Source: Parvibaculaceae bacterium Mf 1.05b.01 (lineage in GTDB: Bacteria; Pseudomonadota; Alphaproteobacteria; Parvibaculales; Parvibaculaceae). Taken from it: a stretch of DNA of 64,000 nucleotides. The stretch covers positions 992,001 through 1,056,000 of the forward strand of contig BAOK01000001.1 in NCBI GenBank assembly GCA_000509225.1, written 5' to 3'. The notes below the pieces were generated by a model. The model saw only the letters and a list, made by a program, of their open reading frames with translations, did no database searches and was not told the DNA's origin. This document shows, piece after piece, positions 27,084 to 51,942 of the stretch (position 1 is the first letter of the stretch; every line of letters begins with the position of its first letter). A program made the translations under genes and the position numbers.

Positions 27084-27824
27084 ATGTCCGCAGAATTGAA
27101 GGCGCTGATCGAGGGTAGCGAACGCGCTGTTGTTTTTACGGGCGCGGGGATCAGCACGGAATCCGGCATTCCGGATTTTCGCAGCCCAGGTGGTCTGTGG
27201 ACCAAAATGGCGCCGATTGATTTTCGGGATTTCATGGCCTCAGAGGAAATGCGGATTGAGGCGTGGCGCCGAAAATTCGCGATGGATGGGAGCTTTGCGG
27301 CTGCCGAGCCCAATAAGGGGCATATGGCGGTCGCCAAACTGGTGGATACGGGCAGGGTCACTCACGTGATTACCCAAAACGTCGATAACCTGCACCAGAA
27401 CTCGGGCGTGCCGACAGACAGGGTGATTGAGCTTCATGGGAACAGCACTTACGCCACGTGCCTCAATTGCGGCGCGCGCTATGAGTTGGCGGAGATCCGG
27501 TCGCACTATGAGGAACACGGCAAGCCACAGGACTGTCAGTTTTGCAGCGGGATCATAAAGTCAGCGACGATCTCCTTCGGACAGGCGATGCCGGAAGCCG
27601 AGATGGAGCGGGCGACGGAAGCGACCTTAGAGTGCGACCTGTTTATCGCGATTGGCTCGTCGCTGCAGGTCTATCCCGCAGCTGGTTTCCCGATTATGGC
27701 AAAGAAGAATGGCGCGAAGCTCGTGATTTTGAACCGCGAAGAAACCGAGCTGGATCCGCTTGCAGACCTTGTCGTGCATGAGGAGATTGGACCGACACTC
27801 GCCCCGATAGTTCAGTTGAACTAG
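27084..27824 (+). CDS. NAD-dependent protein deacylase (sirtuin)
   Basis: 246 aa Sir2-family enzyme removing acyl groups from lysines using NAD. NAD-binding GAGISTESGIPDFRSPGGLW, TQNVDNLHQNSG, the catalytic His in IELHGN, and a zinc site of two CxxC pairs (CLNCGARY and CQFCSGI). The later segment KSATISFGQAMP differs slightly from the usual P-x-V-V-x-F-G-E. Start ATG 27084 lies after GGAGTGGGG. Its stop interlocks with that of the convergent HxlR gene in a shared CTAG. Confidence 0.92.
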   Translation: MSAELKALIEGSERAVVFTGAGISTESGIPDFRSPGGLWTKMAPIDFRDFMASEEMRIEAWRRKFAMDGSFAAAEPNKGHMAVAKLVDTGRVTHVITQNVDNLHQNSGVPTDRVIELHGNSTYATCLNCGARYELAEIRSHYEEHGKPQDCQFCSGIIKSATISFGQAMPEAEMERATEATLECDLFIAIGSSLQVYPAAGFPIMAKKNGAKLVILNREETELDPLADLVVHEEIGPTLAPIVQLN

Positions 27825-28327
27825 AGATATTGTTCTGCTTCCTGCTGCTCAAATGTTTTGTATCGCGCGCTCGGCCAAAACCGGATGTCTTCTCTTTTTA
27901 GCGGTCGTTTTTTCCGGGTTACCATAAGACCGTCTATGGGTTTCCTGGACTGTCGGTCTACGACCAGCATTGGCGGCGCTTTGTCGTCCTGCAGCCACCT
28001 GTCGCCCCATTGAATCAACGCGCACAGGACCGTCAGCAGGTCTTCCCCCGCCTCCGTGGGCAGGTATTCATTCCAACTCGTCTCGGCGTTGATAGGTCTC
28101 TTTTCGATAATGCGATGTTCTTCGAGCTTTTGCAGACGGGCGGATAAGATGTTTTTGGCGATCCCCAAATTGCGTTGAAAATCAGCAAAGCGATTGGTGC
28201 CCAAGAACATTTCTCGAAGGATCAGGACTGACCAGCGATCACCAATAATGTCCATGGATTTTTTGATCGAACAGTCTTCCCGCATTTGCATCGGGATCGA
28301 TAGCTTGGCCGCGGTCTTTGCATTCAT
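27821..28327 (-). CDS. HxlR family transcriptional regulator
   Basis: 168 aa from ATG 28327. The winged-helix HxlR core covers about residues 15-105: CSIKKSMDIIGDRWSVLILREMFLGTNRFADFQRNLG, then the IAKNILSARLQKLEEHRII recognition region and WNEYLPTEAGEDLLTVL. The conserved Cys near the N-terminus (DCSIKKS), used for redox or electrophile sensing in some relatives, is present. It is divergent from an enoyl-CoA hydratase gene, and a perfect 9+9 inverted repeat lies between them, so it likely controls that gene and itself. Confidence 0.88.
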   Translation of the reverse strand: MNAKTAAKLSIPMQMREDCSIKKSMDIIGDRWSVLILREMFLGTNRFADFQRNLGIAKNILSARLQKLEEHRIIEKRPINAETSWNEYLPTEAGEDLLTVLCALIQWGDRWLQDDKAPPMLVVDRQSRKPIDGLMVTRKKRPLKREDIRFWPSARYKTFEQQEAEQYL

Positions 28328-28419
28328 CTCATTGTCTCTATCTTGCCTGTGCACCCACGCACAGGCGTGTTGCATTGAATAGCGACTTTAGCAGAGTTCA
28401 ATGGTTGCGAAATGAAACA

Positions 28420-28482: not shown

Positions 28483-29271
28483 ATGGCAGTTGTCGATTTT
28501 AAGATGGACGGTGAGTTAGCCATTCTCACGATCAACAATCCCCCAGTTAACCTCGCAGATGATGCTTTGTTTGTGGCCCTGCATGAAGCAATTGATCAGC
28601 TGGGATCGTCAAATGCCCGTGCGGCCCTTTTGCGTGCTGAAGGGGAACATTTTGGATGCGGCGTCAACGTCAACACCACCTTTGTGGGGCGAGGAGCTGA
28701 CGATGCCCTGCCAATGCTGCAACGTGGTGTCGGTGACCTGCAAAGACTGGAGCGGATGCCAATTCCCATCATTTGTGCGGTTCAGGGGCTTTGTCTGGCG
28801 GCGGGATTAGAGATTGCCCTGCGGTGCGACATCATTATTTCGTCGTCCAGTGCACAGTTTGCGCAAGTTGAACAGCATATTGGCGCTGCGACCTATCTGG
28901 GCGGTGCCTATCTTCTAGCTGAAAGATGTGGACCAGCGCGGGCGCGGCATATCTGTTTTTCTGGTGATTTTTTTCGCGCGGAAGAGTTTGAGCGCTGGGG
29001 TATTATCAACCAGGTTGTTGCGGAAGAAGACTTGGACACTGTTGCTTTGGCCTATGCCCGGAAGGTTGCCAACGGGCCGACCAAGGCGCATGCGATTACG
29101 AAACAAACAATCCGCAAATTTTTGGACGATGGTGTAGTAGCGGCGGATACATTGCTTCTCGAAGTCGGTCCGCCATTATTTGAGTCCCATGATTTTGTTC
29201 ATGGAGTCGATGTGATGGTCAAACACGGGTCGAAAGCGTTTCGCGGCCTCGCCAAATTCACTGGACAATAG
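28483..29271 (+). CDS. Enoyl-CoA hydratase/isomerase family protein
   Basis: 262 aa crotonase-fold protein. Opening LAILTINNPPVNL, first oxyanion segment FGCGVNVNTTFV (atypical for A-G-x-D), second oxyanion region VQGLCLAAGLEIALRCDIIIS, and AQVEQHIGAATYLGGAYLLAERCG where one catalytic Glu is kept. The C-terminal half ends KHGSKAFRGLAKF. The altered first oxyanion loop suggests a specialised acyl-CoA substrate. GAAGGGAAG precedes ATG 28483. Probably controlled by the divergent HxlR regulator through the operator at 28420. Confidence 0.88.
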   Translation: MAVVDFKMDGELAILTINNPPVNLADDALFVALHEAIDQLGSSNARAALLRAEGEHFGCGVNVNTTFVGRGADDALPMLQRGVGDLQRLERMPIPIICAVQGLCLAAGLEIALRCDIIISSSSAQFAQVEQHIGAATYLGGAYLLAERCGPARARHICFSGDFFRAEEFERWGIINQVVAEEDLDTVALAYARKVANGPTKAHAITKQTIRKFLDDGVVAADTLLLEVGPPLFESHDFVHGVDVMVKHGSKAFRGLAKFTGQ

Positions 29272-29295: not shown

Positions 29296-30042
29296 TTAAC
29301 GTGCGTTTGCCCATCCGCCGGCGAGGGGAATGACCTGACCGGTGATGAAGCCGGATAGGGGGGTGGCCAGGAACGTTATGAGAGCTGCGGCTTCTTCTGG
29401 TTTTCCAAGGCGCTTGAGCGGGATGTTCTTAAGGATCTTGGCCATGGCTTCTTCGTTGGCCAGGAGTTCCGGCGGGAAATAGTCCGGATTTTCGACATAA
29501 TTGGGCGCGACCGCGTTTACCTGAATGTTCCTTGGTGCCAGTTCCCGTGAGAGCGACAGCATGAGAGAGTTGGCGGCACCCCGGGCAGAGGCATACATGG
29601 AATAGTTGGCAAGACCATTGAGCGGTGCAGCGGAGGTGAGGAAGAGGACTTTGCCGCCGCCAGCAGATTTCATGGAAGGCACGATCGCACGGGTGACACG
29701 AAAGGGCTTGAAAACGAGGGCTTCATAGGTTGCCTCCAAATCCTCGTCTTTGGCTGTGTCGAGCGGCGCACGGAGTGCGGGGTAAGCGTCATTATTGATG
29801 AGAACATCGATGCGGCCGGATTCTTCCAATACGCGTCCGGCAGCAACGACAGGATCAGAACCGCTGACAGTCTTGAGACCGGGCAGGGCCGCTTCTGCTG
29901 CGCTGCGCATGTTCGCATCAGCGAATGCGGGATCTGTTCCGTAGACCGTTGCGCCGGCTTCAAGGAGGGCTTTCGCAGAAGGGCGCCCGACAAAGTGCTC
30001 CAGATCTGTGATCAGGACGATTGTGTCCGCTAACTCGCTCAT
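29296..30042 (-). CDS. Probable halohydrin dehalogenase (SDR-related)
   Basis: 248 aa SDR-fold protein without a working NAD(P) site: the glycine-rich loop is replaced by T12-x4-F17-x-G19, which in halohydrin dehalogenases forms the halide/nucleophile pocket. The catalytic set is S137-x12-Y150-x3-R154, with Arg where ordinary SDRs have Lys. Both patterns are the published discriminators of this small family, which interconverts vicinal haloalcohols and epoxides with release of halide. Start ATG 30042 follows GGAGGAAG. Convergent with the enoyl-CoA hydratase gene and divergent from an alpha-glucosidase gene. Most annotation pipelines would label it an SDR oxidoreductase. Substrate is unknown. 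Confidence 0.8.
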   Translation of the reverse strand: MSELADTIVLITDLEHFVGRPSAKALLEAGATVYGTDPAFADANMRSAAEAALPGLKTVSGSDPVVAAGRVLEESGRIDVLINNDAYPALRAPLDTAKDEDLEATYEALVFKPFRVTRAIVPSMKSAGGGKVLFLTSAAPLNGLANYSMYASARGAANSLMLSLSRELAPRNIQVNAVAPNYVENPDYFPPELLANEEAMAKILKNIPLKRLGKPEEAAALITFLATPLSGFITGQVIPLAGGWANAR

Positions 30043-30121
30043 GGCTTCCTCCAACATATTCATCTGCTCCGACCTGATGTAGCATTTACCCAAGTGGAGC
30101 GCGATGTTTTAGGGGAAATGT

Positions 30122-31759
30122 ATGAGTGGCTTGGTGAAGACGCCCTGGTGGAAGGGCGCGGTTGTTTATCAGATCTACCCAAGGAGTTATGCAGACACAA
30201 CGGGCTCCGGCGTGGGCGATCTTGAGGGCATCAAACGCAAACTGGATTATGTCGCATCGCTTGGTGTTGATGCGATCTGGCTGTCGCCAATCTATCCCAG
30301 TCCTAACAAGGATTTTAGTTATGACGTTGCTGACTATTGCGACGTCGCGCCGGAAATGGGCACGCTTGACGGGTTTGACGCTCTTCTGAAGGCGACCCAT
30401 GAGCGAGGCATGAAGCTCATTCTGGATCAGGTGCTGGCCCATAGTTCTGATCAGCATGCCTGGTTTCAGGAGAGCTTGCTGTCCAGGGACAATGAAAAAG
30501 CGAATTGGTATGTCTGGGCAGACGCCAAGGAAGATGGGACGCCACCCAACAATTGGATGTCCGCCTTTGGGGGACCTGCCTGGTCCTGGCACCCGGTCCG
30601 GCGGCAATATTACCACCACAAATTTCTACGCCAGCAGCCAAAGCTGAACTTCCACGAACCGGAAGCGGTGAACGCGCTTATGAATGTGTTGAGGTTCTGG
30701 CTGGATCGCGGTGTGGACGGGTTCCGCCTGGATGTGGCGCATGCCTATTTCCATGATGCTGCCCTCACCGACAATCCGCCGGTGCCGATGGAGGAGCGTA
30801 CCGGTCTGAACTGGTCGCATGCCCCCCGCCTTCAGCAACATGTACATGATAGCGGCTTACCTGAAAATCAGATTGCCATGCGGGCGGTTCGGTCGGTTCT
30901 CGATGAATATGAGGATCGGCTCGCATTTGGGGAATTTGCTGAAACGCCTGAAATGATCGGGACCTATGTGGGTGAGCCTGATCTGCTACACACGGCCTAT
31001 ACATTTGATTTTCTTGAGGACCGGTCACTCGCGCCGATGGTCTTTCAGAGCTATTACCAGGACACGCTAAAGCAGAATGGGGATCCCTGGCCCTGTGTGA
31101 CCTTCTCCAATCATGATCTCACTCGGCCTGTAACCCGGTGGGGTGGTGGAGGAGAGGGGAACGACGATCTCGCCAGATTTGGTCTGGCGTTGCTTCTTGC
31201 GCTCCGAGGAACCGTTCTTCTCTATCAAGGAGAGGAACTTGGGCTTCCCGACGTCGATATTGAGCGTGATCAGATCCAGGATCCGGTGGGCGAACTCTAT
31301 TTCCCCTTCGGCAAAGGCAGAGATGGATGTCGGACGCCGATGCCGTGGATCAGTCGCGCGCCGAACGCAGGTTTCAGCGGTGGGGAACCCTGGTTGCCAA
31401 TTCCGGCCACGCACTCTGAGCGGGCGGTCGATGTTCAGGAAGCAATGAATGGTACAGTCCTGAAGTTCGCGCGGGAGGCCATCCGCTTCCGGAAGGAACA
31501 CACCTGTTTGTCCACCGGTGATATCAGCTTCTTAGAAAGCAGCGGCTCCATATTGGCATTTGAACGTGCACTTGGTGATGAGATGCTGACTTGTGTTTTC
31601 AACTCTAGTAAAGATACGGCTGTTTGGCATGGCAATGCTGCCTCAAAGGTTGTTTTGAAAGGCGCCGACAGACTTGAATTCGGCACGGGCGATGTTTCGA
31701 TCGTTGGGACTGAAGTGATCTGCGGTCCGAGGAGTGTAGCCTTCTTCAACAGAACCTAG
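30122..31759 (+). CDS. GH13 alpha-glucosidase / oligo-1,6-glucosidase type
   Basis: 545 aa family 13 glycoside hydrolase. PWWKGAVVYQIYPRSYADTTGSGVGDLEGI opens the TIM barrel; calcium/substrate motif LILDQVLAHSSDQHAWF; nucleophile Asp in DGFRLDVAHAYF; acid/base Glu in LAFGEFAETPE; third carboxylate in FSNHDLTRPVTRWG. No signal peptide, so it acts in the cytosol on imported oligosaccharides, likely exo-alpha-glucosidase activity. No transporter or regulator for sugars is next to it. Its stop interlocks with the stop of the convergent molybdenum-cofactor gene in a shared CTAG. Confidence 0.92.
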   Translation: MSGLVKTPWWKGAVVYQIYPRSYADTTGSGVGDLEGIKRKLDYVASLGVDAIWLSPIYPSPNKDFSYDVADYCDVAPEMGTLDGFDALLKATHERGMKLILDQVLAHSSDQHAWFQESLLSRDNEKANWYVWADAKEDGTPPNNWMSAFGGPAWSWHPVRRQYYHHKFLRQQPKLNFHEPEAVNALMNVLRFWLDRGVDGFRLDVAHAYFHDAALTDNPPVPMEERTGLNWSHAPRLQQHVHDSGLPENQIAMRAVRSVLDEYEDRLAFGEFAETPEMIGTYVGEPDLLHTAYTFDFLEDRSLAPMVFQSYYQDTLKQNGDPWPCVTFSNHDLTRPVTRWGGGGEGNDDLARFGLALLLALRGTVLLYQGEELGLPDVDIERDQIQDPVGELYFPFGKGRDGCRTPMPWISRAPNAGFSGGEPWLPIPATHSERAVDVQEAMNGTVLKFAREAIRFRKEHTCLSTGDISFLESSGSILAFERALGDEMLTCVFNSSKDTAVWHGNAASKVVLKGADRLEFGTGDVSIVGTEVICGPRSVAFFNRT

Positions 31760-33375
31760 TCGGTTTGATGTTTGCGTAAGGCCTCTGGTGTATCGAAGTC
31801 AGCGAGGGGAGCATCACCATCGACGGGAACTTCGCACACCAGATCAGTATTCTGTGCCATCAGTGTCTTCGCCCCGACATCGCCTGAGAGGTTTAGAAGG
31901 TCGGGAAAGAAGGAGGCATCCCACAGGACAGGGTTGCCTCGTTTTTTGCCAACGACAGGCACGCAGATGAACTTGTCGTCCGTTGGGTCGCGTGCCTCAA
32001 TTAGATGGTTGATAAGATCTGATGAAACGAGGGGCATGTCGCCCAGCAAGATCACTGCTGCATCAACAGGTGGATCAAGCTCTGCGGCGGCTTTGATGCC
32101 TGCCCTAATGGAAGTGCTTAAACCGTCTGCATAGTCGGGATTGTGCGCATATTCCATAGGGCGGCCCGCAAGAGCTTTCAGCACCCCTTCTTTTTCGTGT
32201 CCGGTGACCAGGATGATACCGTCAGCCTTTGAGGCAAGTGCAGCATCGGCCACGTGAGCAATCATTGGTTTGCCGTCAAAATCGCTGGTGAGTTTGTTCG
32301 TCGGGCCCATGCGGGTTGAGCGACCACCGCCTAAGATAATTGCCGCCACACGAGGGGCCTGATCGCTTTTGCGCTTCGCATCACGAGGTTGAGGTCGAGA
32401 GGGAATTTCTTTTAGAAGACCTCCGACGCCCATGGACTGAATATCACGGGACTCAACTGCCATTCCGGCCGCCAGACGCTGCAACACCCAATCAACGCCA
32501 TTCAGTTTCGGTGACCTGGCGCAGCCAGGCAGGCCCACGACCGGTCGGCCCGCCAACTCTGCTAACAGCAACAAATTTCCCGGATCAACAGGCATGCCGA
32601 AATGCCGGATCAATCCTCCTGATTTTTCGATGGACGATGGAACCACATCGCGCCGATCCCCCGTTGCGGATGCTCCAAGGATCAGGATCATTTCAATGTT
32701 GGCAGGCGCAGCTTGAAGCGCGGCCATAAGCGATTTTTCATCATGCGCGCATGTCTGAACGCTATCCAGCGAAACAGCTAGGTTTTCTAGCCTCGAACGG
32801 ATGACTGTTTCCGATCTGGCCAAAACAGACTGTTTGGTTCCGTCTACGCTTGTGAGGATGAGGGCAGCTGTTTTGAGTCGAAAAGGATTTAGCAATAATG
32901 CGGGCGATGAGTTTGCCGCTAGGGCCGCTGCGTGGTCGACCACCTGCTTCGGCGCGGCATAGGGAATGATTTTCACCGTGGCCACCATCTGACCTTCGGT
33001 TACAGCATCGAAATTGGGGAGGGTCGCGACGGTGATCGCCTCATCGAGACCATTGATTTCGTTGATGGTGGCTTCATTCAAGCTGAGAACGCCGGGGACA
33101 GTTGCATAGAGATTGGCGCGCCCGGTGAAGGCAGTGTCTGCGCGTATGTGGGGGCCTGTGAGCGCGGCTGCAATGATTGCGGCGGCCTCATCTTCGGGCA
33201 TGTCCTCTGCGTCCAGCTGGGCTGCGTAGAGCGTTGCGATACCCGCATGTGACAGAAATTCAATATCTTCACCGCTCAGAACGCGACCCTTTTTAAAGGT
33301 CTTGTCGACTGTTCGGACGGAGTGCGCGAGCACCATGCCTTTTGCTTCTGAAACCGAGAAGGAGCCGAACTTCAT
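31756..33375 (-). CDS. Molybdopterin-binding/MobA-like NTP-transferase fusion protein
   Basis: 539 aa with two parts. Residues 1 to about 340 resemble a molybdopterin-binding domain of the MoeA/MogA class (ILILGASATGDRRDVVPSSIEKSGG, then GLPGCARSPKLNGVDWVLQR). From about 348 a MobA/MocA-type nucleotidyltransferase begins: AAIILGGGRSTRMGPTNKL, LLGDMPLVSSDLI and RGNPVLWDASFF. MocA-like enzymes add CMP to the molybdenum cofactor for xanthine-dehydrogenase-family enzymes. It is the last gene of the cox-like cluster and overlaps the XdhC-like gene by 4 bases, so it likely prepares cofactor for the coxL product. Confidence 0.88.
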   Translation of the reverse strand: MKFGSFSVSEAKGMVLAHSVRTVDKTFKKGRVLSGEDIEFLSHAGIATLYAAQLDAEDMPEDEAAAIIAAALTGPHIRADTAFTGRANLYATVPGVLSLNEATINEINGLDEAITVATLPNFDAVTEGQMVATVKIIPYAAPKQVVDHAAALAANSSPALLLNPFRLKTAALILTSVDGTKQSVLARSETVIRSRLENLAVSLDSVQTCAHDEKSLMAALQAAPANIEMILILGASATGDRRDVVPSSIEKSGGLIRHFGMPVDPGNLLLLAELAGRPVVGLPGCARSPKLNGVDWVLQRLAAGMAVESRDIQSMGVGGLLKEIPSRPQPRDAKRKSDQAPRVAAIILGGGRSTRMGPTNKLTSDFDGKPMIAHVADAALASKADGIILVTGHEKEGVLKALAGRPMEYAHNPDYADGLSTSIRAGIKAAAELDPPVDAAVILLGDMPLVSSDLINHLIEARDPTDDKFICVPVVGKKRGNPVLWDASFFPDLLNLSGDVGAKTLMAQNTDLVCEVPVDGDAPLADFDTPEALRKHQTD

Positions 33376-34061
33376 GAATGCTCCTGCCGAAGTGTTTGGG
33401 TTATTTCTGCTAGGATTGAGATGGCTATTTCCGCAGGGCTCTTCGCGCCGATATTGAGGCCGACGGGCCCACAGATGCGCGCAATTTCTGCGTCGGCAAA
33501 ACCCGCGTCGGTGAGACGTTGTTGGCGGGCCGCTTGCGTTTTTTTGCTACCAAGAGCGCCAATATAGAAAGCGGCAGACTGCAAAGCGACATGAAGGGCA
33601 GGATCATCCAGCTTTGGATCATGGGTTAGGGTGACGACGGCGGTCCGGGCATCCAACTCCAGGTGCTGAAGTGCCTCATCAGGCCATTCATTAATCAGCG
33701 TGACGTTTGGGAAGCGCTCTGCCGACGCGAACGCTTCTCTAGGGTCGATGACGCTCACATCATAGCCAGCTTCCAGTCCCATGCGCGCCAGCGGCTGCGC
33801 GATGTGCACGGCGCCTACAATGATAAGACGTAGTGGCGGATTGAAAACATTGAAGAACCAGGGAGTGCCGTCTGGAGCATCTGTTGTGCGGCTTTTGTCG
33901 GAGCGAATAGCTGCATCGACTTCGGTCATCATCCAATCAGGTTGACCCGTCTCACCTGGCACAAGCGTCAGCTGTTCGTTCGTCTGAAGGTTTGACGCCA
34001 GCACGATGGGTTGTTTTGCCGCCTGAGCGCTCAAAATCTGTTTCAGGGTTTCCTGCTTCAT
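33372..34061 (-). CDS. XdhC/CoxI family protein, C-terminal Rossmann half
   Basis: 229 aa. The Rossmann-type XdhC domain is visible: LIIVGAVHIAQPLARMGLEAGYDVSVIDPREAF, VTLTHDPKLDDPALHVAL, FYIGALGSKKT and the closing GPVGLNIGAKSPAEIAISILAEI. XdhC proteins bind molybdenum cofactor and help sulfurate and insert it into xanthine-dehydrogenase-family enzymes. In many genomes both halves are one polypeptide; here the N-terminal half is the separate gene just upstream, 3 bases away. Confidence 0.9.
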   Translation of the reverse strand: MKQETLKQILSAQAAKQPIVLASNLQTNEQLTLVPGETGQPDWMMTEVDAAIRSDKSRTTDAPDGTPWFFNVFNPPLRLIIVGAVHIAQPLARMGLEAGYDVSVIDPREAFASAERFPNVTLINEWPDEALQHLELDARTAVVTLTHDPKLDDPALHVALQSAAFYIGALGSKKTQAARQQRLTDAGFADAEIARICGPVGLNIGAKSPAEIAISILAEITQTLRQEHS

Positions 34062-34064
34062 GGT

Positions 34065-34424
34065 TCAGGCAACCGTCAGGGGTTCGAGATAGATTTTGAT
34101 CTTGCCGCCACAGGCAAGCCCCACTTCCCAGGCCATGGCGTCGGCGACACCATATTCCAGGACTTCTGGTGCTTCACTCTGGATAGCGTCGAGCGCGCGT
34201 GTAACAACGTCGCCTTCAATACAGCCCCCGGAGACGGAGCCGACGAATGTGGCATCCTCGCGGATGGCAAGCTGACTGCCAACAGGCCGGGGCGCGGAAC
34301 CCCAGGTTTCGATAACGGTCGCGAGGGCAACCTTATGCCCTGCATCCGCCCAGGCTGCTGCTTGTGCCAGCACGTTATCGTCTGCCCGGTTCTTGTTGTC
34401 TAAACGCGTCGTCGTTTCGGTCAT
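34065..34424 (-). CDS. XdhC/CoxI family protein, N-terminal half
   Basis: 119 aa carrying only the first XdhC/CoxI domain: VLAQAAAWADAGHKVALATVIETWGSAPRPVGSQLAI, then FVGSVSGGCIEGDVV, which is the family signature, and GVADAMAWEVGLACGG. ATG 34424 overlaps the coxE stop as ATGA, so it is preferred over an ATG five codons upstream. It is paired with the Rossmann half at 33372 and serves cofactor insertion into the coxSML enzyme. Confidence 0.88.
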   Translation of the reverse strand: MTETTTRLDNKNRADDNVLAQAAAWADAGHKVALATVIETWGSAPRPVGSQLAIREDATFVGSVSGGCIEGDVVTRALDAIQSEAPEVLEYGVADAMAWEVGLACGGKIKIYLEPLTVA

Positions 34425-35602
34425 GCTGCTGCCGGCCATTTTTTCTCAGGCGCACTCAAGGATGCCACAAGGTCTTCAAGGGACGCCAGGTTGTGGACAG
34501 GTCTGAACTCATCCACATGGGGTAGCATGGTTCTAATGCCAAGAGCTTTGGGTTCAAACGCGTCAAATCGGAGCAGTGGGTTGAGCCAAATCAGTCTGCG
34601 GCTGGCACGGTGAAGGCGGGCGATCTCAGGTTCCAGGCCCTCCGCGCCGTCTCTGTCCAACCCATCTGTCACCAACAGGACCGTGGCTCCCTGGCCAAGC
34701 ACCCGCCGTGCCCAATCCACGTTAAAGCGTCTCAGAGTCTCGCCGATGCGCGTGCCACCGTCCCAGTCTTCGACGGCTTTTGAGACAGAAGATAGGGCGT
34801 CATCAACATCCTTGTGGCGAAGTTGGCGCGAAACATGGGTGAGGCGTGTCCCAAACAGGAAGGTGTGGACGCGGTCCCGGTCGTTGGTGAGAGCGTGGAG
34901 GAAGTGAAGGAATGTTCGTGCGTAGACACTCATGGACCCGGAAATATCGCAGAGCACAACCAAAGGCGGCGGACGGTGTCTGCGTTCGCGGCGCTTTAGC
35001 GGAATGATGTCCCCGCCGCGTAGTGAGGCGCGGAGGGTGGCACGCATATCTATCAGTGGGCCGCGAGAGGAGGGACGGGTTCGACGGGTCAGTACTTTGT
35101 CTTGCTTCAGGTGGAGACGGGACAGTGCTTTTCGTGCTTCGGCACTCTCTGCGGCACTCATCTGTTCGAAGTCTTTCGTGCGCAGGATCTCTGCTGCCGA
35201 CATGGTTTCTCTGGCATCAATTTCGACGTCTGGTTCCGGCTCCTGCACAGGCGTATTTTCTTGATTGAGTAGAGCTTCCGCGAGCCTTCGACTCGTCTGC
35301 TCTTCCGGTTCCTCTGGCGGGAGTGTGAGTTCTGGAAGCATCATGGCCATCATGCGTTCCAGCATGCGCGGGTCGCGCCAGAAAATATGGAAGGCCTGAT
35401 TGAAGATTTCCCGCATGTCTTGCGTGTGGATGAGCGTCGTATGGAGCGCCCAGTAGAGATCGCTCTCCGATCTGATGCCGGCCACTTGAACTGCTTCTAT
35501 GGCGTCGAGGACCTGGCGCGGCCCGACCGGCACACCGGCGCGGCGCAGGACGCCTGCAAAATGTGCGATATTCTCTGCTATATGGCCGGAGCTTTCCGTC
35601 AT
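34421..35602 (-). CDS. coxE: VWA domain protein CoxE
   Basis: 393 aa VWA-containing protein. The MIDAS metal site starts at VLCDISGSMSVYAR (D-x-S-x-S), and a second metal-site Asp is in LLVTDGLDRDGAEGL. The N-terminal part is a CoxE helical region (IAHFAGVLRRAGVPVGPRQ). With the MoxR-type ATPase CoxD it works in maturation of CO-dehydrogenase-like enzymes; in the model system CoxD/CoxE assist assembly of the Cu-Mo centre. Overlaps coxD by 4 bases. Confidence 0.92.
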   Translation of the reverse strand: MTESSGHIAENIAHFAGVLRRAGVPVGPRQVLDAIEAVQVAGIRSESDLYWALHTTLIHTQDMREIFNQAFHIFWRDPRMLERMMAMMLPELTLPPEEPEEQTSRRLAEALLNQENTPVQEPEPDVEIDARETMSAAEILRTKDFEQMSAAESAEARKALSRLHLKQDKVLTRRTRPSSRGPLIDMRATLRASLRGGDIIPLKRRERRHRPPPLVVLCDISGSMSVYARTFLHFLHALTNDRDRVHTFLFGTRLTHVSRQLRHKDVDDALSSVSKAVEDWDGGTRIGETLRRFNVDWARRVLGQGATVLLVTDGLDRDGAEGLEPEIARLHRASRRLIWLNPLLRFDAFEPKALGIRTMLPHVDEFRPVHNLASLEDLVASLSAPEKKWPAAA

Positions 35603-36507
35603 TCGGCTGCGGTTTTCAGTTCATCCAGAATTTGAGCGGCATCAGATCCACGTACCTGCGCTATGTCGTCTTGGTATTTGAGTAGGGTCCCTAGTGTGTC
35701 GTTGATGTTGCTTTCGCTCAAGGAGACGGCATTTAGCTGGGTCAGCGCATTTGCCCAATCAAGGGTTTCGGCGATGCCCGGCTGCTTATAAAGGTCACGC
35801 TCTCGCAGCGCCTGGACGAAGGTCACGATCTGTCGGGACAGGTCTTCTGCGGCATCAGGTGCTTTCAGGCGGACGATCTCGAGTTCTCGCTCTGCGTCCG
35901 GGTAGTCCACCCAGTGATAGAGGCAGCGGCGCTTCAGCGCGTCATGGATTTCGCGGGTCCGGTTGGAGGTCACGATCACGATGGGTGGTTCTGCTGCCTT
36001 TACGGTCCCGATTTCCGGAATGGTGATCTGAAAGTCCGAGAGGACCTCAAGCAGATAGGCTTCGAAGGGCTCGTCGGTTCTGTCGATTTCGTCGATGAGA
36101 AGCACTGGCGGTCCATTCACGTCCGGCTCCAGCGCTTGCAGGAGGGGACGCCGAATGAGAAACCGGTCATCGAATACATCCTTGGCGAGGACGTTTCGGT
36201 CTTCGACGCCTTGCGCTTCAGCGAGGCGGATCTCGATCATCTGCGCCTGATAGTTCCACTCATAGACTGCGGCGGCGGTGTCCAGGCCTTCGTAGCATTG
36301 TAAGCGAATGAGCTTTCGGCCCAATGCGCTTGCGAGCACTTTCGCAATCTCTGTCTTGCCGACACCGGCTTCACCTTCCAGAAAAAGGGGACGGCCCATT
36401 TTGAGTGCGAGAAAGAGAACGGTCGCGAGGGAGCGGTCGGCAACATAGGCACCGCTCGACAGCAGCGCCGCTGTCTCGTCGATTGAGGCGGGAAGAGAAA
36501 TTGTCAT
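35599..36507 (-). CDS. coxD: MoxR-type AAA ATPase CoxD
   Basis: 302 aa AAA+ ATPase. Walker A GEAGVGKTE, Walker B VLLIDEIDRTDEPFEA, sensor 1 in VIVTSNRTREI and arginine-finger region DALKRRCLYHWVDYPD. MoxR proteins act as chaperone-like ATPases in metalloenzyme maturation and pair with VWA proteins; here the partner is the adjacent coxE. It follows coxM with a 31-base gap. Confidence 0.93.
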   Translation of the reverse strand: MTISLPASIDETAALLSSGAYVADRSLATVLFLALKMGRPLFLEGEAGVGKTEIAKVLASALGRKLIRLQCYEGLDTAAAVYEWNYQAQMIEIRLAEAQGVEDRNVLAKDVFDDRFLIRRPLLQALEPDVNGPPVLLIDEIDRTDEPFEAYLLEVLSDFQITIPEIGTVKAAEPPIVIVTSNRTREIHDALKRRCLYHWVDYPDAERELEIVRLKAPDAAEDLSRQIVTFVQALRERDLYKQPGIAETLDWANALTQLNAVSLSESNINDTLGTLLKYQDDIAQVRGSDAAQILDELKTAAE

Positions 36508-36538
36508 TGGTTCAGGCTACAACGAATGGCGTTTCGGG

Positions 36539-37336
36539 TCACATGGTCGCTGCAACAGCGCGGCCCGCCATTACAGAGATAAGGTGGCTGCGATAGTCTG
36601 CAGCACCATGGAGATCCGACAGAAGGTCATCTTCTGGCACTTTGATCCCCGTGACAGCGTCTGGTGACCAGTTGCTGCTGAGCGCATCTTCCATCTCTTT
36701 CACGCGGAAGACGCCATTGGCTCCTGCGCCTGTGACAGCGACTCGAATATCGATGGGTGTTTTAGCGACGAACACGCCGACCATAGCGTAGCGCGATGCG
36801 GGGTTCGGGAACTTGACGTAAGCGGCTTTCTCCGGATGGGGGAAGGTCACTTCTGTGATGATCTCATCATCTTCCAAGGCTGTTTCGAACATGCCTGTGA
36901 AATAGGGGTCTGCGTCAATCAGGCGTTTGTTGGTGTGGATTTTGGCGTCGAGACCAAGGGCTGCTGCTGGATAGTCTGCTGCTGGGTCATTATTTGCGAG
37001 TGACCCGCCGATGGTGCCGCGATTGCGCACTGCTGGATCACCGATATGGGCAGCAAGATGGGCGAGCGCAGGCAGGTGTTTTGCCACGTCAGGTGAGGCG
37101 GCAACGTCTGCATGCTTGGTTGCAGCGCCAATTGTGATCGCGTCGCCTTCGGCCTTGATGAAGTTGAGATCGGCGATATTGCCGATATCGATGAGTTTCG
37201 CCGGCATGGCTAGGCGTTGCTTCAGCGTCGGGATCAGCGTTTGTCCACCTGCAAGGAGCGTGTTTTCATCATTGGCGGCGAGAAGCTCCGCTGCTTCAGC
37301 GACTGTTTGCGCGCGGTGATAGTCGAACTGGTACAT
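36539..37336 (-). CDS. coxM: Medium (FAD) subunit of CO-dehydrogenase-like enzyme
   Basis: 265 aa FAD-binding subunit of the xanthine-oxidase family. FAD contacts in LLAGGQTLIPTLKQRLAMP and TIGGSLANNDPAADYPAA; the C-terminal CO_deh_flav domain includes YVKFPNPASRYAMVGV. It passes electrons from the two [2Fe-2S] clusters of CoxS to the final acceptor. Adjacent to coxL with a 9-base gap. Confidence 0.94.
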   Translation of the reverse strand: MYQFDYHRAQTVAEAAELLAANDENTLLAGGQTLIPTLKQRLAMPAKLIDIGNIADLNFIKAEGDAITIGAATKHADVAASPDVAKHLPALAHLAAHIGDPAVRNRGTIGGSLANNDPAADYPAAALGLDAKIHTNKRLIDADPYFTGMFETALEDDEIITEVTFPHPEKAAYVKFPNPASRYAMVGVFVAKTPIDIRVAVTGAGANGVFRVKEMEDALSSNWSPDAVTGIKVPEDDLLSDLHGAADYRSHLISVMAGRAVAATM

Positions 37337-37345
37337 GGGTGTTCC

Positions 37346-39706
37346 TCAATCAGAGCTAGGTGATGGTGCGGCGAGCGCTGCCCATACACGTGCGGGGGTT
37401 GCTGGCATTTTAATGTCTCGGACGCCGAGGGCATCCGTAATGGCGTTGATAACGGCGGGCGGCGAGGCGATGGCACCAGCCTCACCACAGCCCTTCATGC
37501 CCATGGGGTTTGAGGGGCAGTCTGTTTGGGTAAAGCCCAAATCAAAGTCAGGCAGATCGTCGGCACGCGGCATGCAATAGTCCATGAACGACCCGGTGAT
37601 CAGCTGGCCGGTTTCATCATAATGCGCTGCCTCAAAGAGCGCCTGGCCGATCCCCTGGGCGATGCCGCCCTGGACCTGACCTTCCACGATCATCGGGTTC
37701 ACAATCACGCCGAAATCATCCACGGCGACAAAATTGGCGATTTGAGTGACGCCAGTGTCTGGATCGATTTCGACTTCGCAGATATGGCAGCCAGACGGGA
37801 AGGTGAAGTTGAGCGGGTCGTAAAAGGCATTCTCCTTCAGACCTGGTTCGATCTCAGAGGTCGGGAACCCGTGGGCCGTATAGGCACCCAGCGCAAGTTC
37901 CGCCCAGGCGAGTTCTTTGTCGGTGCCAGCCACTGTGAAGACACCGTCCTTCAGCTCGATATCGCCGGCGTCGGCTTCCATCAGATGGGCTGCGATCTTC
38001 TTTGCTTTTGCTTCGATTTTGTCGAGCGCATGAGCTAGCGCGCTCATGCCAACTGAGCCGGAACGGGAGCCGTAGGTGCCCATGCCAAACTGTACGCGGC
38101 CCGTGTCTCCATGAATGATCTCAACATCGTCAATGGGGACGCCAATCCGTTCGCAGACGAGCTGTGCAAACGTTGTTTCATGGCCCTGTCCGTGGCTGTG
38201 GGCGCCGGTAAAGACTTCGATCTTGCCTGTGGGGGCAACCTGCACCTCAGCGCTTTCCCATAGCCCCACACCTGCTCCAAGCGAGCCCACAGCGGCGGAA
38301 GGGGCGAGACCACAGGCTTCAATATAGGTTGAGAACCCGATGCCGCGTTTTTTGCCACGGCTCTCGGCCTCGGCCTTGCGGGCTGGAAAACCATCATAAT
38401 CGACGAGTGCAAGTGCTTTATCGAGGCACGCATCATAGTCGCCAATGTCATAATTCATGATGACCGGCGTTTGATGCGGGAACGTGCGAATGAAATTTTT
38501 GCGACGAAGTTCGGCTGGATCGAACGCCAGTTCACGCGCTGCGGTCTCAACGATCCGTTCAATCAGGTAGGTTGCCTCAGGGCGTCCGGCGCCGCGGTAA
38601 GCGTCTACGGGGGCGGTATGGGTGAATACGCCATCCACTTCAACATAGACTGCGGGGAGGGCGTATTGGCCTGAGAGCAGAGTGCCGTACAGGTAGGTCG
38701 GGACAGATGATGCGAAAGTCGAGAGATAGGCGCCGAGATTGGCCTTGGTTTGAACATGGAGCCCCAGGAACGTCCCATCTTCTGCGACGGCCAGTTCCGC
38801 ATGACTCACATGATCGCGTCCGTGGGCGTCTGAGAGAAAGGACTCGCTGCGTTCCGCTGTCCATTTGATTGGACGCTTTATCTTCGCCGATGCCCATGTG
38901 CAGGCTGTCTCTTCTGCGTAGATGAAAATCTTGGAGCCGAACCCGCCACCAACGTCGGGGGCAATGACCCGCAATTTGTGTTCCGGCGCCACGCCAACAA
39001 AAGCGGACAGGACGAGACGCGCAACATGCGGGTTCTGGCTGGTTGTCCAAAGCGTGTATTCGTCGGTTCCGCTGTCATAATCGGCAATGGCGGCGCGCGG
39101 TTCCATGGCGTTTGGGATCAAGCGATTATTGGTGAGATCGAGTTTGACGATATGGGCGGCGTTCTTAAGGGCCGCTAGCGTTTCCGGCTTGTTTCCAAGT
39201 TCCCAGTCGAAGCATGTATTGCTGGGTGCTTCTGCATGAACCTGCGGCGCGGACCCATCCTGTGCAGTGCCAACATCTGCAGCCGCATCAAGGACGTTAT
39301 AGTCAACCACGATAAGTTCAGCTGCTGATTTTGCTTGGGCGTAGGTTTCCGCCACAACCATGGCGACGTGATCGCCGACATAGCGCACTGTGTCTTCCGC
39401 CAGGATCGGGTGGGCCCCGGCTTTCATTTCAGAGCCGTCTTTGGAATGGACCGTCCAGCCGCAGATCAATCCACCCAGACCATCAGCGGCAACGTCAGAT
39501 CCCGTAAAGATACTTACGACACCGGGGGCAGCGACCGCTTCTGTCAGATCAATGCCATTGATCTTTGCATGGGCATGGGGGCTGCGGAGAAAATAGGCAT
39601 AGGTCTGACCCGGGCGGTTCAGGTCATCGGTATATCGTCCGGCACCGGTGATGAACCGTTTGTCTTCTTTGCGACGGACGGCTTGTCCAATTCCTGTCGT
39701 GCTCAT
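37346..39706 (-). CDS. coxL: Form II CO-dehydrogenase-like large (molybdopterin) subunit
   Basis: 786 aa catalytic subunit. The loop that defines form is A369-Y-R-G-A-G-R375, the form II version; form I enzymes proven to oxidise CO have AYxCSFR with a Cys ligating Cu. So no Cu-binding Cys is present here and the physiological substrate is uncertain. Other marks: [20 protein letters not shown] and the catalytic Glu742 in [10 protein letters not shown]. Expected partners CoxM and CoxS are encoded alongside. Likely an aldehyde or purine-type hydroxylase, or slow CO oxidation. Confidence 0.93.
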
Positions 39707-39733
39707 GAATTCCTCCTCCCGGAATTCCCGTTT

Positions 39734-39831
39734 AGAGTGCTTTGTCCCAAAACAGGGTCATGAGCGCACTCTATGCCTTCTTTTGTCGCGTTTTCGAACC
39801 GCAAAACCGCATGTACTTTTGCTGAAAACGC
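39734..39831. repeat. Double palindromic intergenic element (RIME-like)
   Basis: Two tandem hairpins fill the coxS-coxL gap. The first pairs AGAGTGC (39734-39740) with GCACTCT (39766-39772). The second pairs GCGTTTTC (39788-39795) with GAAAACGC (39824-39831) and inside it GCAAAA (39801-39806) with TTTTGC (39817-39822). Similar two-palindrome mosaics of about 100 bases (RIME) are known from Rhizobiales. No second copy was seen in this window. Confidence 0.6.
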
Positions 39832-39836
39832 TTTTA

Positions 39837-40304
39837 TCAGGCGGGTGTGGTTTCAGCAGCGTCGAGAATGGACTTCACAATGTTCTGGTAACCGGTGCAG
39901 CGACAGATATTACCTTCAAGTTCTGCGCGGACCGTCTCCTCATCCAGGTTCGGTATCCGGTCGATCATATCAACCGCGGTCATGATCATGCCCGGTGTGC
40001 AAAAGCCGCACTGCAGCCCGTGGTTTTCTTTGAATGCTTTTTGAACGGGGTGAAGATCATCCCCCTTTGCCAGCCCTTCAATGGTTGTGATGGCGCTGCC
40101 TTCCGCCTGTAACGCGAGCATGGTGCACGCCTTTACCGCTTTGCCATCCATGTGGATGACGCAGGCGCCGCATTGGCTTGTATCGCACCCTACATGCGTG
40201 CCGGTCAGGCTCAGATTTTCACGTATGAATTGAACCAATAGGGTGCGGCCTTCGACTTCACCCGATACTGGTTTGCCATTGACTGTCATGGAGACGAGAG
40301 CCAT
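39837..40304 (-). CDS. coxS: Small (2Fe-2S) subunit of CO-dehydrogenase-like enzyme
   Basis: 155 aa iron-sulfur subunit. N-terminal ferredoxin-type cluster ligands in [16 protein letters not shown] plus a later Cys in VKAC; C-terminal helical cluster ligands in QCGFCTPGM and ICRCTGYQN. It is the first subunit gene of the cluster, separated from coxL by the palindromic repeat element. Confidence 0.95.
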
Positions 40305-40443
40305 GGGCGGTTCCTCCCGAAGTTAGGTGACGGCATATCTCAAGCCGTCGGGACGTTCGCAGCGTCCTTTGGGTTTCTTTGGAATAAGTGTCTGCGCTTG
40401 CTCGGTCGGCGTCAAGCTGTGCGACGCAAAGTACTGCTCGCTC

Positions 40444-41028
40444 TTACATAGTGGCGACGTAGATCGCAATCAATGCGCCCGCGATCACAAGTGTGCCCCA
40501 CATCCAAGGGGCGAGACCGAGACCTGCCTCTTCGTCAGGCACGAGCGGCACATGAGTTGGGGCAATGGCGTCGACTTCGTCTTCCGTCGTGCCACCCGTG
40601 ATTGCCGCAAACGATGTGAAGAATTCATCCGCCATTTTCTTGGCTGTAGAGTCGATGAACCGCTGTCCTACCTGTGCGAGTTTGCCGCCAACGGTTGCTT
40701 GAACTTCATAGCTCAGAAGGGTGCCGTCGCCATCCGGTGTGAGTTTCACAACGGCGGATCCTTTGGCAAAGCCAGCTGCGCCGCCTGAGCCTTCACCGCT
40801 GATTTTGTACCCGTTAGGAGCATCTATATCGGAGAGGGTCACATTGCCTTTGAATTTGGCGCTGACGGGTCCGACTTTGGCTTTCGCAACAGCGGCAAAT
40901 TCCGTGTCGCTGGTTTTTTCAACACTCTCGGCCCCTGGAATGGATTGCTGGAGGATTTCAGGATCATTGAGCGCTGCCCAAACATCTGCTTGAGGAGCGG
41001 GAATACGGAATTCGCCAGTCATTTCCAT
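40444..41028 (-). CDS. coxG: CoxG, membrane-tethered SRPBCC protein
   Basis: 194 aa. An SRPBCC/CoxG domain covers residues 1-150: MEMTGEFRIPAPQADVWAALNDPEILQQSIPG, then VKLTPDGDGTLLSYEVQATVGGKLAQVGQRF. After a short linker a C-terminal membrane helix follows (APWMWGTLVIAGALIAIYVA). In the model carboxydotroph, CoxG anchors CO dehydrogenase to the membrane and, as shown for a related actinobacterial CoxG, can deliver quinone. The same role is inferred here. It lies 41 bases after the last mrp gene. Confidence 0.93.
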   Translation of the reverse strand: MEMTGEFRIPAPQADVWAALNDPEILQQSIPGAESVEKTSDTEFAAVAKAKVGPVSAKFKGNVTLSDIDAPNGYKISGEGSGGAAGFAKGSAVVKLTPDGDGTLLSYEVQATVGGKLAQVGQRFIDSTAKKMADEFFTSFAAITGGTTEDEVDAIAPTHVPLVPDEEAGLGLAPWMWGTLVIAGALIAIYVATM

Positions 41029-50795: not shown

Positions 50796-50940
50796 AAGGT
50801 TCTCCATTCCGAGCTCGACTCCAAGCGTCGAGCGAGTTCTATGAACACAGAACAGGAATTCCATACCTCCGTCACAACGAAGTCAATTGACATGTTTCAT
50901 GCCATAAGTTTCTATGAGCGCAACAAAACAGGAGACGTCC

Positions 50941-51942
50941 ATGGAAGTCCTACGCACCCCCGAAGAGCGCTTTGAAAACCTGCCGCTTTATCCATTTGAG
51001 CCGAATTATTGCGATGTAGATGATGGGGAAGGTCACAAGGTGCGGATGCACTATGTGGATGAGGGGCCAAAAGACGGGCCGTTGATCCTGGCCATGCACG
51101 GACAGCCGGTATGGTCTTACCTTTATCGCAAGATGATCCCGCTTTTTGTCGCCAAAGGCTATCGGGTCATTTGCCCTGATCTCATTGGCTTTGGGCGCTC
51201 AGATAAACCTGCAAGCACGGATGACTACACCTATGCCCGCCATGTGGGCTGGGTGACCTCATTGGTCACACAGCTCGACCTGCAGAACGTGACTTTCTTC
51301 GGGCAGGATTGGGGAGGGCTCATCGGCCTGCGTGTCGTTGCAGAGAATGAAGCCCGGTTTGCCCGGGTCTGCATCGGCAATACCGGTCTTCCAGACGCGA
51401 AGGGTGTTCCATTGGAGCTCGCGCCCAAGATGCACGCCTATTATGAGAGCATTGAAGTCCCAACAGCTGAGAACCTTGGCACCCATTTCGTGGAAAACAC
51501 GAATGGCATGGGCTTTCTCCATTGGGTGAAGTTTGCGGCTGAAGCCACTGATTTTGTTGTCTCAAACATGGTCAAAAATAGCTCGCCCGTCGGGATTTCT
51601 GACGAAGAAGCAGCAGCCTTTGATGCACCATTCCCGAGTGACGAATACATGGCGGGTGCCCGCAAATTTCCATCGCTGGTGCCGATCATCCCGGACAATC
51701 CTGCGATCCCGGCCAATAAGGCTGCGTGGGACGTGTTCCATAAGTGGGAAAAGCCCTTCCTGACCGCGTTCAGCGATATGGACCCGGTGACCGCAGGCGG
51801 CGAGAAGCGTTTCCAGGAGGAAGTGCCGGGTGCAAAGGGGCAACCGCACACAACTATCAAGACCGCGGGCCACTTTCTTCAGCACGACCAGCCAGAGGCG
51901 CTGGCGACAGTCATAATGGATTTCATCAAAGCCAATCCCTAA
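50941..51942 (+). CDS. Haloalkane dehalogenase-like alpha/beta hydrolase
   Basis: 333 aa from ATG 50941 (AGGAGA site). The nucleophile elbow is GQD123WGG with Asp in place of Ser and the halide-binding Trp124 following, a mark of haloalkane dehalogenases (HLD-I-like). The oxyanion motif reads HGQPVW where HLD-I usually has HGEPTW. Other triad members: Asp in FSDMDPVT and His in AGHFLQHDQP. A second halide-stabilising Trp may be in GFLHWVKFA. Cleaves a carbon-halogen bond to alcohol and halide if active. Epoxide hydrolase is less likely because the two lid Tyr are not evident. Confidence 0.85.
   Translation: MEVLRTPEERFENLPLYPFEPNYCDVDDGEGHKVRMHYVDEGPKDGPLILAMHGQPVWSYLYRKMIPLFVAKGYRVICPDLIGFGRSDKPASTDDYTYARHVGWVTSLVTQLDLQNVTFFGQDWGGLIGLRVVAENEARFARVCIGNTGLPDAKGVPLELAPKMHAYYESIEVPTAENLGTHFVENTNGMGFLHWVKFAAEATDFVVSNMVKNSSPVGISDEEAAAFDAPFPSDEYMAGARKFPSLVPIIPDNPAIPANKAAWDVFHKWEKPFLTAFSDMDPVTAGGEKRFQEEVPGAKGQPHTTIKTAGHFLQHDQPEALATVIMDFIKANP

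Follow-up and report, generated by a model that had tools for sequence, protein, structure and literature searches.

The gene studied here very probably encodes a halohydrin dehalogenase (HHDH), an enzyme that interconverts halogenated alcohols and epoxides. For this family the accessible parts of two publications (PMC4989007, PMC11976700) give a common mechanism: a serine positions the substrate hydroxyl, an arginine lowers the pKa of a tyrosine, the tyrosine takes the proton and the oxygen displaces the halide. As far as its accessible text goes, PMC4989007 counts 37 new HHDHs for 2014 and a further 26 for 2016, HheA3 from Parvibaculum among them, so that an earlier, sequence-only reading of this DNA, which held that only few of these enzymes are known, has been overtaken. 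The same text describes HheA3 of P. lavamentivorans DS-1 as a characterised enzyme whose thermostability exceeds that of HheC.

The DNA analysed here is a stretch of 64,000 nucleotides (the window) from Parvibaculaceae bacterium Mf 1.05b.01, and its features are collected in Table 1. Genome G015 holds a single match to the window protein, locus L060, at 64% identity. We infer that G015 is P. lavamentivorans DS-1 and that L060 is HheA3; on this identification the window gene would be an A-type HHDH of the HheA3 group. Both proteins carry the two family motifs and fall into one 15-row clade of our tree (support 99/95), and both genes lie between cobB and the GH13, MobA and XdhC genes. The two proteins differ at 36% of their residues, and G015, unlike the window genome, lacks the HxlR/hydratase insertion at the locus and has no haloalkane dehalogenase match at E <= 1e-30. 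On this reading the group of the window gene already includes a tested enzyme of a related bacterium, and the window adds one more A-type sequence.

Table 1. Positions of the HHDH gene, its motifs and the surrounding genes in the window
Feature	Position	Strand	Remark
cobB-like sirtuin	27084..27824	+	flank conserved across the family
HxlR-type regulator	27821..28375	minus	inserted between HHDH and cobB; not at this site in the six other genus genomes
enoyl-CoA hydratase-like gene	28483..29271	+	same insertion as HxlR
HHDH gene P0001	30042..29296	minus	248 aa, ATG at 30042
motif 2, S-x12-Y-x3-R, codons 137-154	29581..29634	minus	catalytic triad in the HHDH family
motif 1, T-x4-F-x-G, codons 12-19	29986..30009	minus	nucleophile pocket in the HHDH family
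GGAGGA, likely ribosome-binding site	30047..30052	minus	four bases 5' of ATG
GH13 (alpha-amylase family) glucosidase-like gene	30122..31759	+	divergent from HHDH; conserved flank
MobA-like and XdhC-like molybdenum cofactor genes	31756..34061	minus	conserved flank
CoxE, CoxD, CoxM, CoxL, CoxS, CoxG-like molybdo-hydroxylase cluster	34421..41028	minus	conserved flank
haloalkane dehalogenase	50914..51942	+	NCBIfam NF002043, 440 bits versus cut-off 265; 21 kb from HHDH

Signature motifs and family placement

The sequence-only reading had given the limits of the gene correctly without naming its strand: the only long open frame of the interval is its reverse complement, the plus-strand frame being interrupted by stops. 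In GC and GC3 the gene resembles its neighbours. Both motifs stand exactly where that reading had put them, as confirmed by a script that checked the residue numbers. Motif 1 reads T12-DLEH-F17-V-G19 in place of the glycine-rich NAD loop, and motif 2 reads S137...Y150-ASA-R154, with Arg in place of Lys. The features of classical short-chain dehydrogenases/reductases (SDRs), namely the T-G-x3-G-x-G loop and the Ser-Tyr-Lys set, are absent from the protein; inspection of its sequence found no TGxxxGxG loop, and the classical NNAG stretch appears as NNDA.

The presence of the two patterns goes beyond chance. Both occur in all 20 loci from the search for relatives (L053-L072, the window's own among them) and together in none of 24 ordinary SDRs from a phylum scan (L108-L131). 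Motif 1, scored in these controls with F, Y or W at the aromatic position, is found in 0/24 and the motif-2 pattern somewhere in one (L113), whereas 23 of the 24 possess the glycine loop together with Ser-Tyr-Lys. In four loci that belong to the HHDH clade (L016, L017, L018 and L019; 52-54% identity) the aromatic residue of motif 1 is Trp (T-x4-W-x-G), and a strict T-x4-F/Y-x-G filter would therefore miss them; three of them (L016, L017 and L019) are among the 35 HHDH rows of the tree.

Pfam assigns the window protein to adh_short and adh_short_C2 only, and the best 25 of the 195 NCBIfam models matched all score far below their cut-offs, so that it would be labelled an SDR in routine annotation, as had been anticipated. 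The window genome contains 43 matching places at E <= 0.001, with 9e-158 for the HHDH gene itself and 2e-22 for the next best. In a phmmer search of PDB sequences, 6a41 ranks first with 246 bits, followed by HheC (137-141 bits), HheA (131-132 bits), HheD2 (7b73; 127 bits) and HheB (97-98 bits). The first ordinary SDR scores 94 bits, and 8oxf and 8xxb also lie above it; the G-type HHDHs are found among the ordinary SDRs (7wkq 88.6 bits, 8h8y 86 bits).

A maximum-likelihood tree was built from 56 rows, 35 of them HHDHs (the window protein, 29 loci and five PDB stretches, with same-genome copies and fragments left out) and 21 ordinary SDRs (19 of the 24 phylum-scan loci together with L102 and L103); HheA2, the HheA/HheA2 enzymes of actinobacteria and the G-type HHDHs lie outside its scope. 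One branch splits the HHDH rows from the SDR rows with support of 100/99 and places the window protein on the HHDH side. Following a long-branch warning, five long rows (L131, L127, HheC, HheB and L071) were removed, and the split was recovered at 100/100; when seven signature columns were dropped as well, it stood at 100/99. The finer order within the HHDH side is less sure, and several forks are open.

The predicted structure (AlphaFold2, 20-row alignment; mean pLDDT 90.3, pTM 0.89) agrees with this placement, more weakly than do the searches and the tree. Foldseek returned HHDHs at ranks 1-10 and a FabG at rank 11, and VIA-align gave Z 36.8 and rmsd 1.3 over 244 aligned residues for 6a41, Z 33.5 and rmsd 1.9 over 244 for HheC, and Z 32.3 and rmsd 1.8 over 237 for a FabG. 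With this FabG so close to HheC, the modelled fold by itself separates an HHDH from an ordinary SDR only weakly.

Comparison with the solved enzymes reveals both shared and altered features. The 'dehalogenation enzyme' 6a41 is 49% identical to the window protein and has both motifs, but its place in the tree is beside L104 and not within the Parvibaculaceae clade. HheC (1pwx, C type) is 35-36% identical, and twelve of its motif and pocket residues (T7, F12, G14, D80, T131, S132, Y145, R149, P175, N176, Y177 and P188) are aligned with identical ones, whereas F82, P84, F86, T134, W139, L142, C153 and L178, among others, are not matched. Since several of these pocket residues are changed (F82Y, P84A, F86R, W139L, L142Y and others), the substrates may differ; near the Y-F-P loop the alignment also has a gap of three residues. 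The C-terminal Trp extension of HheC presumably has no counterpart in the window protein, judged by length. HheD2 and HheB (4zd6) share both motifs and the same side of the HHDH/SDR split, but form a separate branch (100/99), and a run of about 20 residues in the window protein is missing from both.

These results support the assignment of the window protein, on its sequence, to the HHDH family, apart from ordinary SDRs, as the sequence-only reading had proposed. The purified protein would very probably show HHDH activity, as a NAD-independent A-type enzyme of the HheA3 kind; as a family member it would be expected to form a homotetramer.

Distribution and inheritance of the locus

In the order of the host, which consists of one family, 27 of 40 genomes have a match at E <= 1e-26, 24 of them of the A kind and three (G017, G052 and G053) of a second kind, which is 36-39% identical to the window protein and bears both motifs. 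An even draw of 398 genomes across the phylum gave 28 with a match at the same threshold; both motifs are present in at least five of these (G000, G193, G285, G300 and G420, the window's own included), a lower bound as six candidates were scored per genome. The second kind is seen only where the A type is absent (0/24 versus 3/16; p 0.057, and 0.029 in good genomes, ancestry being ignored), which is a suggestive pattern in a tiny sample.

The HHDH region was compared in 19 genomes (20 stretches). In 17 of them the gene occupies one shared locus, with cobB on one side in all 17, within about 0.55 kb except in G020 and G022 (about 6 kb), and MobA and XdhC on the other, GH13 lying between in 15 (not in G009 and G016). 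G010 was counted over two contigs, its HHDH being present as two overlapping pieces at contig ends. The two exceptions are G017, whose second-kind gene is located elsewhere in the genome, and G027, from another family, whose gene (49% identity) has RecJ and glpX in its vicinity and no cobB, GH13 or cox genes. Broken or shortened copies were also encountered: in G016 (L090), which has no GH13 there, the match is confined to residues 133-248, and the best segment of L042 matches residues 156-248 only.

The A kind is absent from 16 genomes. Nine of these were examined in the same way, and in seven cobB and GH13 are adjacent with no HHDH there, the alignment ends being separated by 29 (G017), 47 (G052), 51 (G053), 247 (G024), 251 (G042), 591 (G019) and 1320 (G055) bases; the stretch of G007 contains no GH13, and that of G041 runs off its contig. 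From the single locus in 17/19 genomes and the cobB-GH13 adjacency in 7/9, we conclude that the HHDH gene is inherited in place. Its patchy presence reflects several losses or, with lower probability, gain at this one site. Our literature search found no paper on conserved HHDH gene neighbourhoods, and the fixed locus and the pattern of loss are modest new points on this gene.

A plasmid-borne or recently acquired gene was considered and rejected, as synteny speaks for vertical inheritance, GC and GC3 are neighbour-like and the plasmid matches are distant: of 72,556 plasmid records searched by tblastn, 246 match at E <= 1e-20, every best place being below 60% identity, and the best 20 of the 246 show 32-35% identity, to SDR-type genes where annotated.

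The HxlR and enoyl-CoA hydratase genes have a GC content below that of the HHDH gene, and only two others of the 40 genomes contain relatives of the hydratase at E <= 1e-60, with 42-45% identity. A conserved functional link of this pair with the HHDH was dismissed, since none of the six other genomes of the genus has the pair at this place. On the other flank, CoxL reads AYRGAGR, which we take to mark form II rather than a true CO dehydrogenase, and its scores fall below the NCBIfam cut-offs. The MobA/MocA-like protein (31756-33375) has about 340 residues without a Pfam match ahead of its nucleotidyltransferase domain.

Of five comparisons with genus members, three could be computed and gave dN/dS values for the HHDH gene of 0.023, 0.029 and 0.086, several pairs having failed or saturated; these values indicate purifying selection. 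Against the three closest genomes (G001-G003) the HHDH gene shows saturation or a dS of 3.8-4.7, compared with 0.6-2.0 for seven neighbours tested, which may reflect allele exchange or fast change at the gene.

Predicted catalysis and natural role

The residues for each step of the family mechanism are present in the window protein, and by analogy catalysis could proceed as follows. Ser137 would hold the hydroxyl group of a vicinal haloalcohol, while Tyr150, its pKa lowered by Arg154, would remove the hydroxyl proton. The substrate oxygen would then displace the adjacent halide, with release of the epoxide, and the leaving halide would sit in a pocket formed by T12, F17, G19 and the P180-N181-Y182 loop. 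In the reverse direction, an epoxide should also be opened with halide, cyanide, azide or nitrite. As to the role in the cell, we tentatively propose that the enzyme clears haloalcohols and epoxides, the epoxides being passed to the epoxide hydrolases of the genome.

It is rather unlikely that this member of the HHDH clade acts in truth on an ordinary metabolite such as a cellular epoxide, with dehalogenation as a side activity and a fixed position beside the molybdo-hydroxylase genes that reflects its role. The shared locus and the purifying selection are consistent with such a function, and the accessible portion of PMC4989007 leaves room for other physiological functions, since no more than two known HHDH genes are in an operon with an epoxide hydrolase. 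However, the gene is divergent from GH13 and shares no operon with the cox-like genes, and its absence from the locus in seven of the nine further genomes that were examined, where cobB still adjoins GH13, argues that it is dispensable.

Unlikely, too, is a natural halocarbon pathway in which the haloalkane dehalogenase of the window supplies the haloalcohol, the HHDH converts it to the epoxide and EHN-type hydrolases produce the diol. All three kinds of gene occur in the window genome, where EHN-type epoxide-hydrolase-like genes form a tandem pair on contig 1 (Pfam confirms EHN for one) and one LEH-family match is present. The haloalkane dehalogenase, whose nearest solved relative is 6f9o (about 35 residues, 162-196, are unmatched there), recurs at 86-97% identity in five of the six other genomes of the genus; four of them have it on one contig with the HHDH, at a distance of 20-23 kb. 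In G017 a haloalkane dehalogenase gene is head-to-head with the second-kind gene. Against this pathway, the genes form no operon in the window, and the sixth genus genome, G005, has only a weaker haloalkane dehalogenase match (57% over part), with none in G015 at the threshold given above. Moreover, EHN genes occur in 39/40 and LEH genes in 33/40 genomes of the family, HHDH present or not, and hence are no specific sign of an HHDH pathway. Across the 40 genomes, 22 have both HHDH and haloalkane dehalogenase, five the HHDH only, six the haloalkane dehalogenase only and seven neither; with ancestry ignored, Fisher's test gives p 0.03 for this set and p 0.32 for the 27 good genomes, and we therefore reject co-occurrence as proof of the pathway.

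The arrangement in G017 (contig C23, L089:8531-14406) deserves separate description. The haloalkane dehalogenase scores 391 bits against a cut-off of 265, its head-to-head partner is 36% identical to the window protein, and two genes for PtlE-like flavin monooxygenases follow (695 and 826 bits, below the cut-off of 1100). This is possibly a natural dehalogenation cluster. The neighbours of the second-kind genes in G052 and G053 differ from those in G017.

Finally, an ordinary SDR oxidoreductase with motifs altered by chance, to which the purely SDR-type Pfam and NCBIfam matches and the fold common to both families would point, is highly improbable and was rejected on the motif counts in control SDRs and on the reduced trees, in particular the one that keeps the protein with the HHDHs without the signature columns.

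HHDHs are prized in biocatalysis, and the accessible part of the review PMC4989007 leaves their natural role open. It is doubtful, though conceivable, that the Parvibaculaceae HHDH is an old gene at a fixed chromosomal site rather than a recent response to industrial chemicals, and that it works with the haloalkane dehalogenase and epoxide hydrolases of the same genome in a natural economy of halocarbons or epoxides. Inheritance in place with occasional loss, and a cultured member, P. lavamentivorans DS-1, with a characterised HHDH, would make the natural role testable by removal of the gene.
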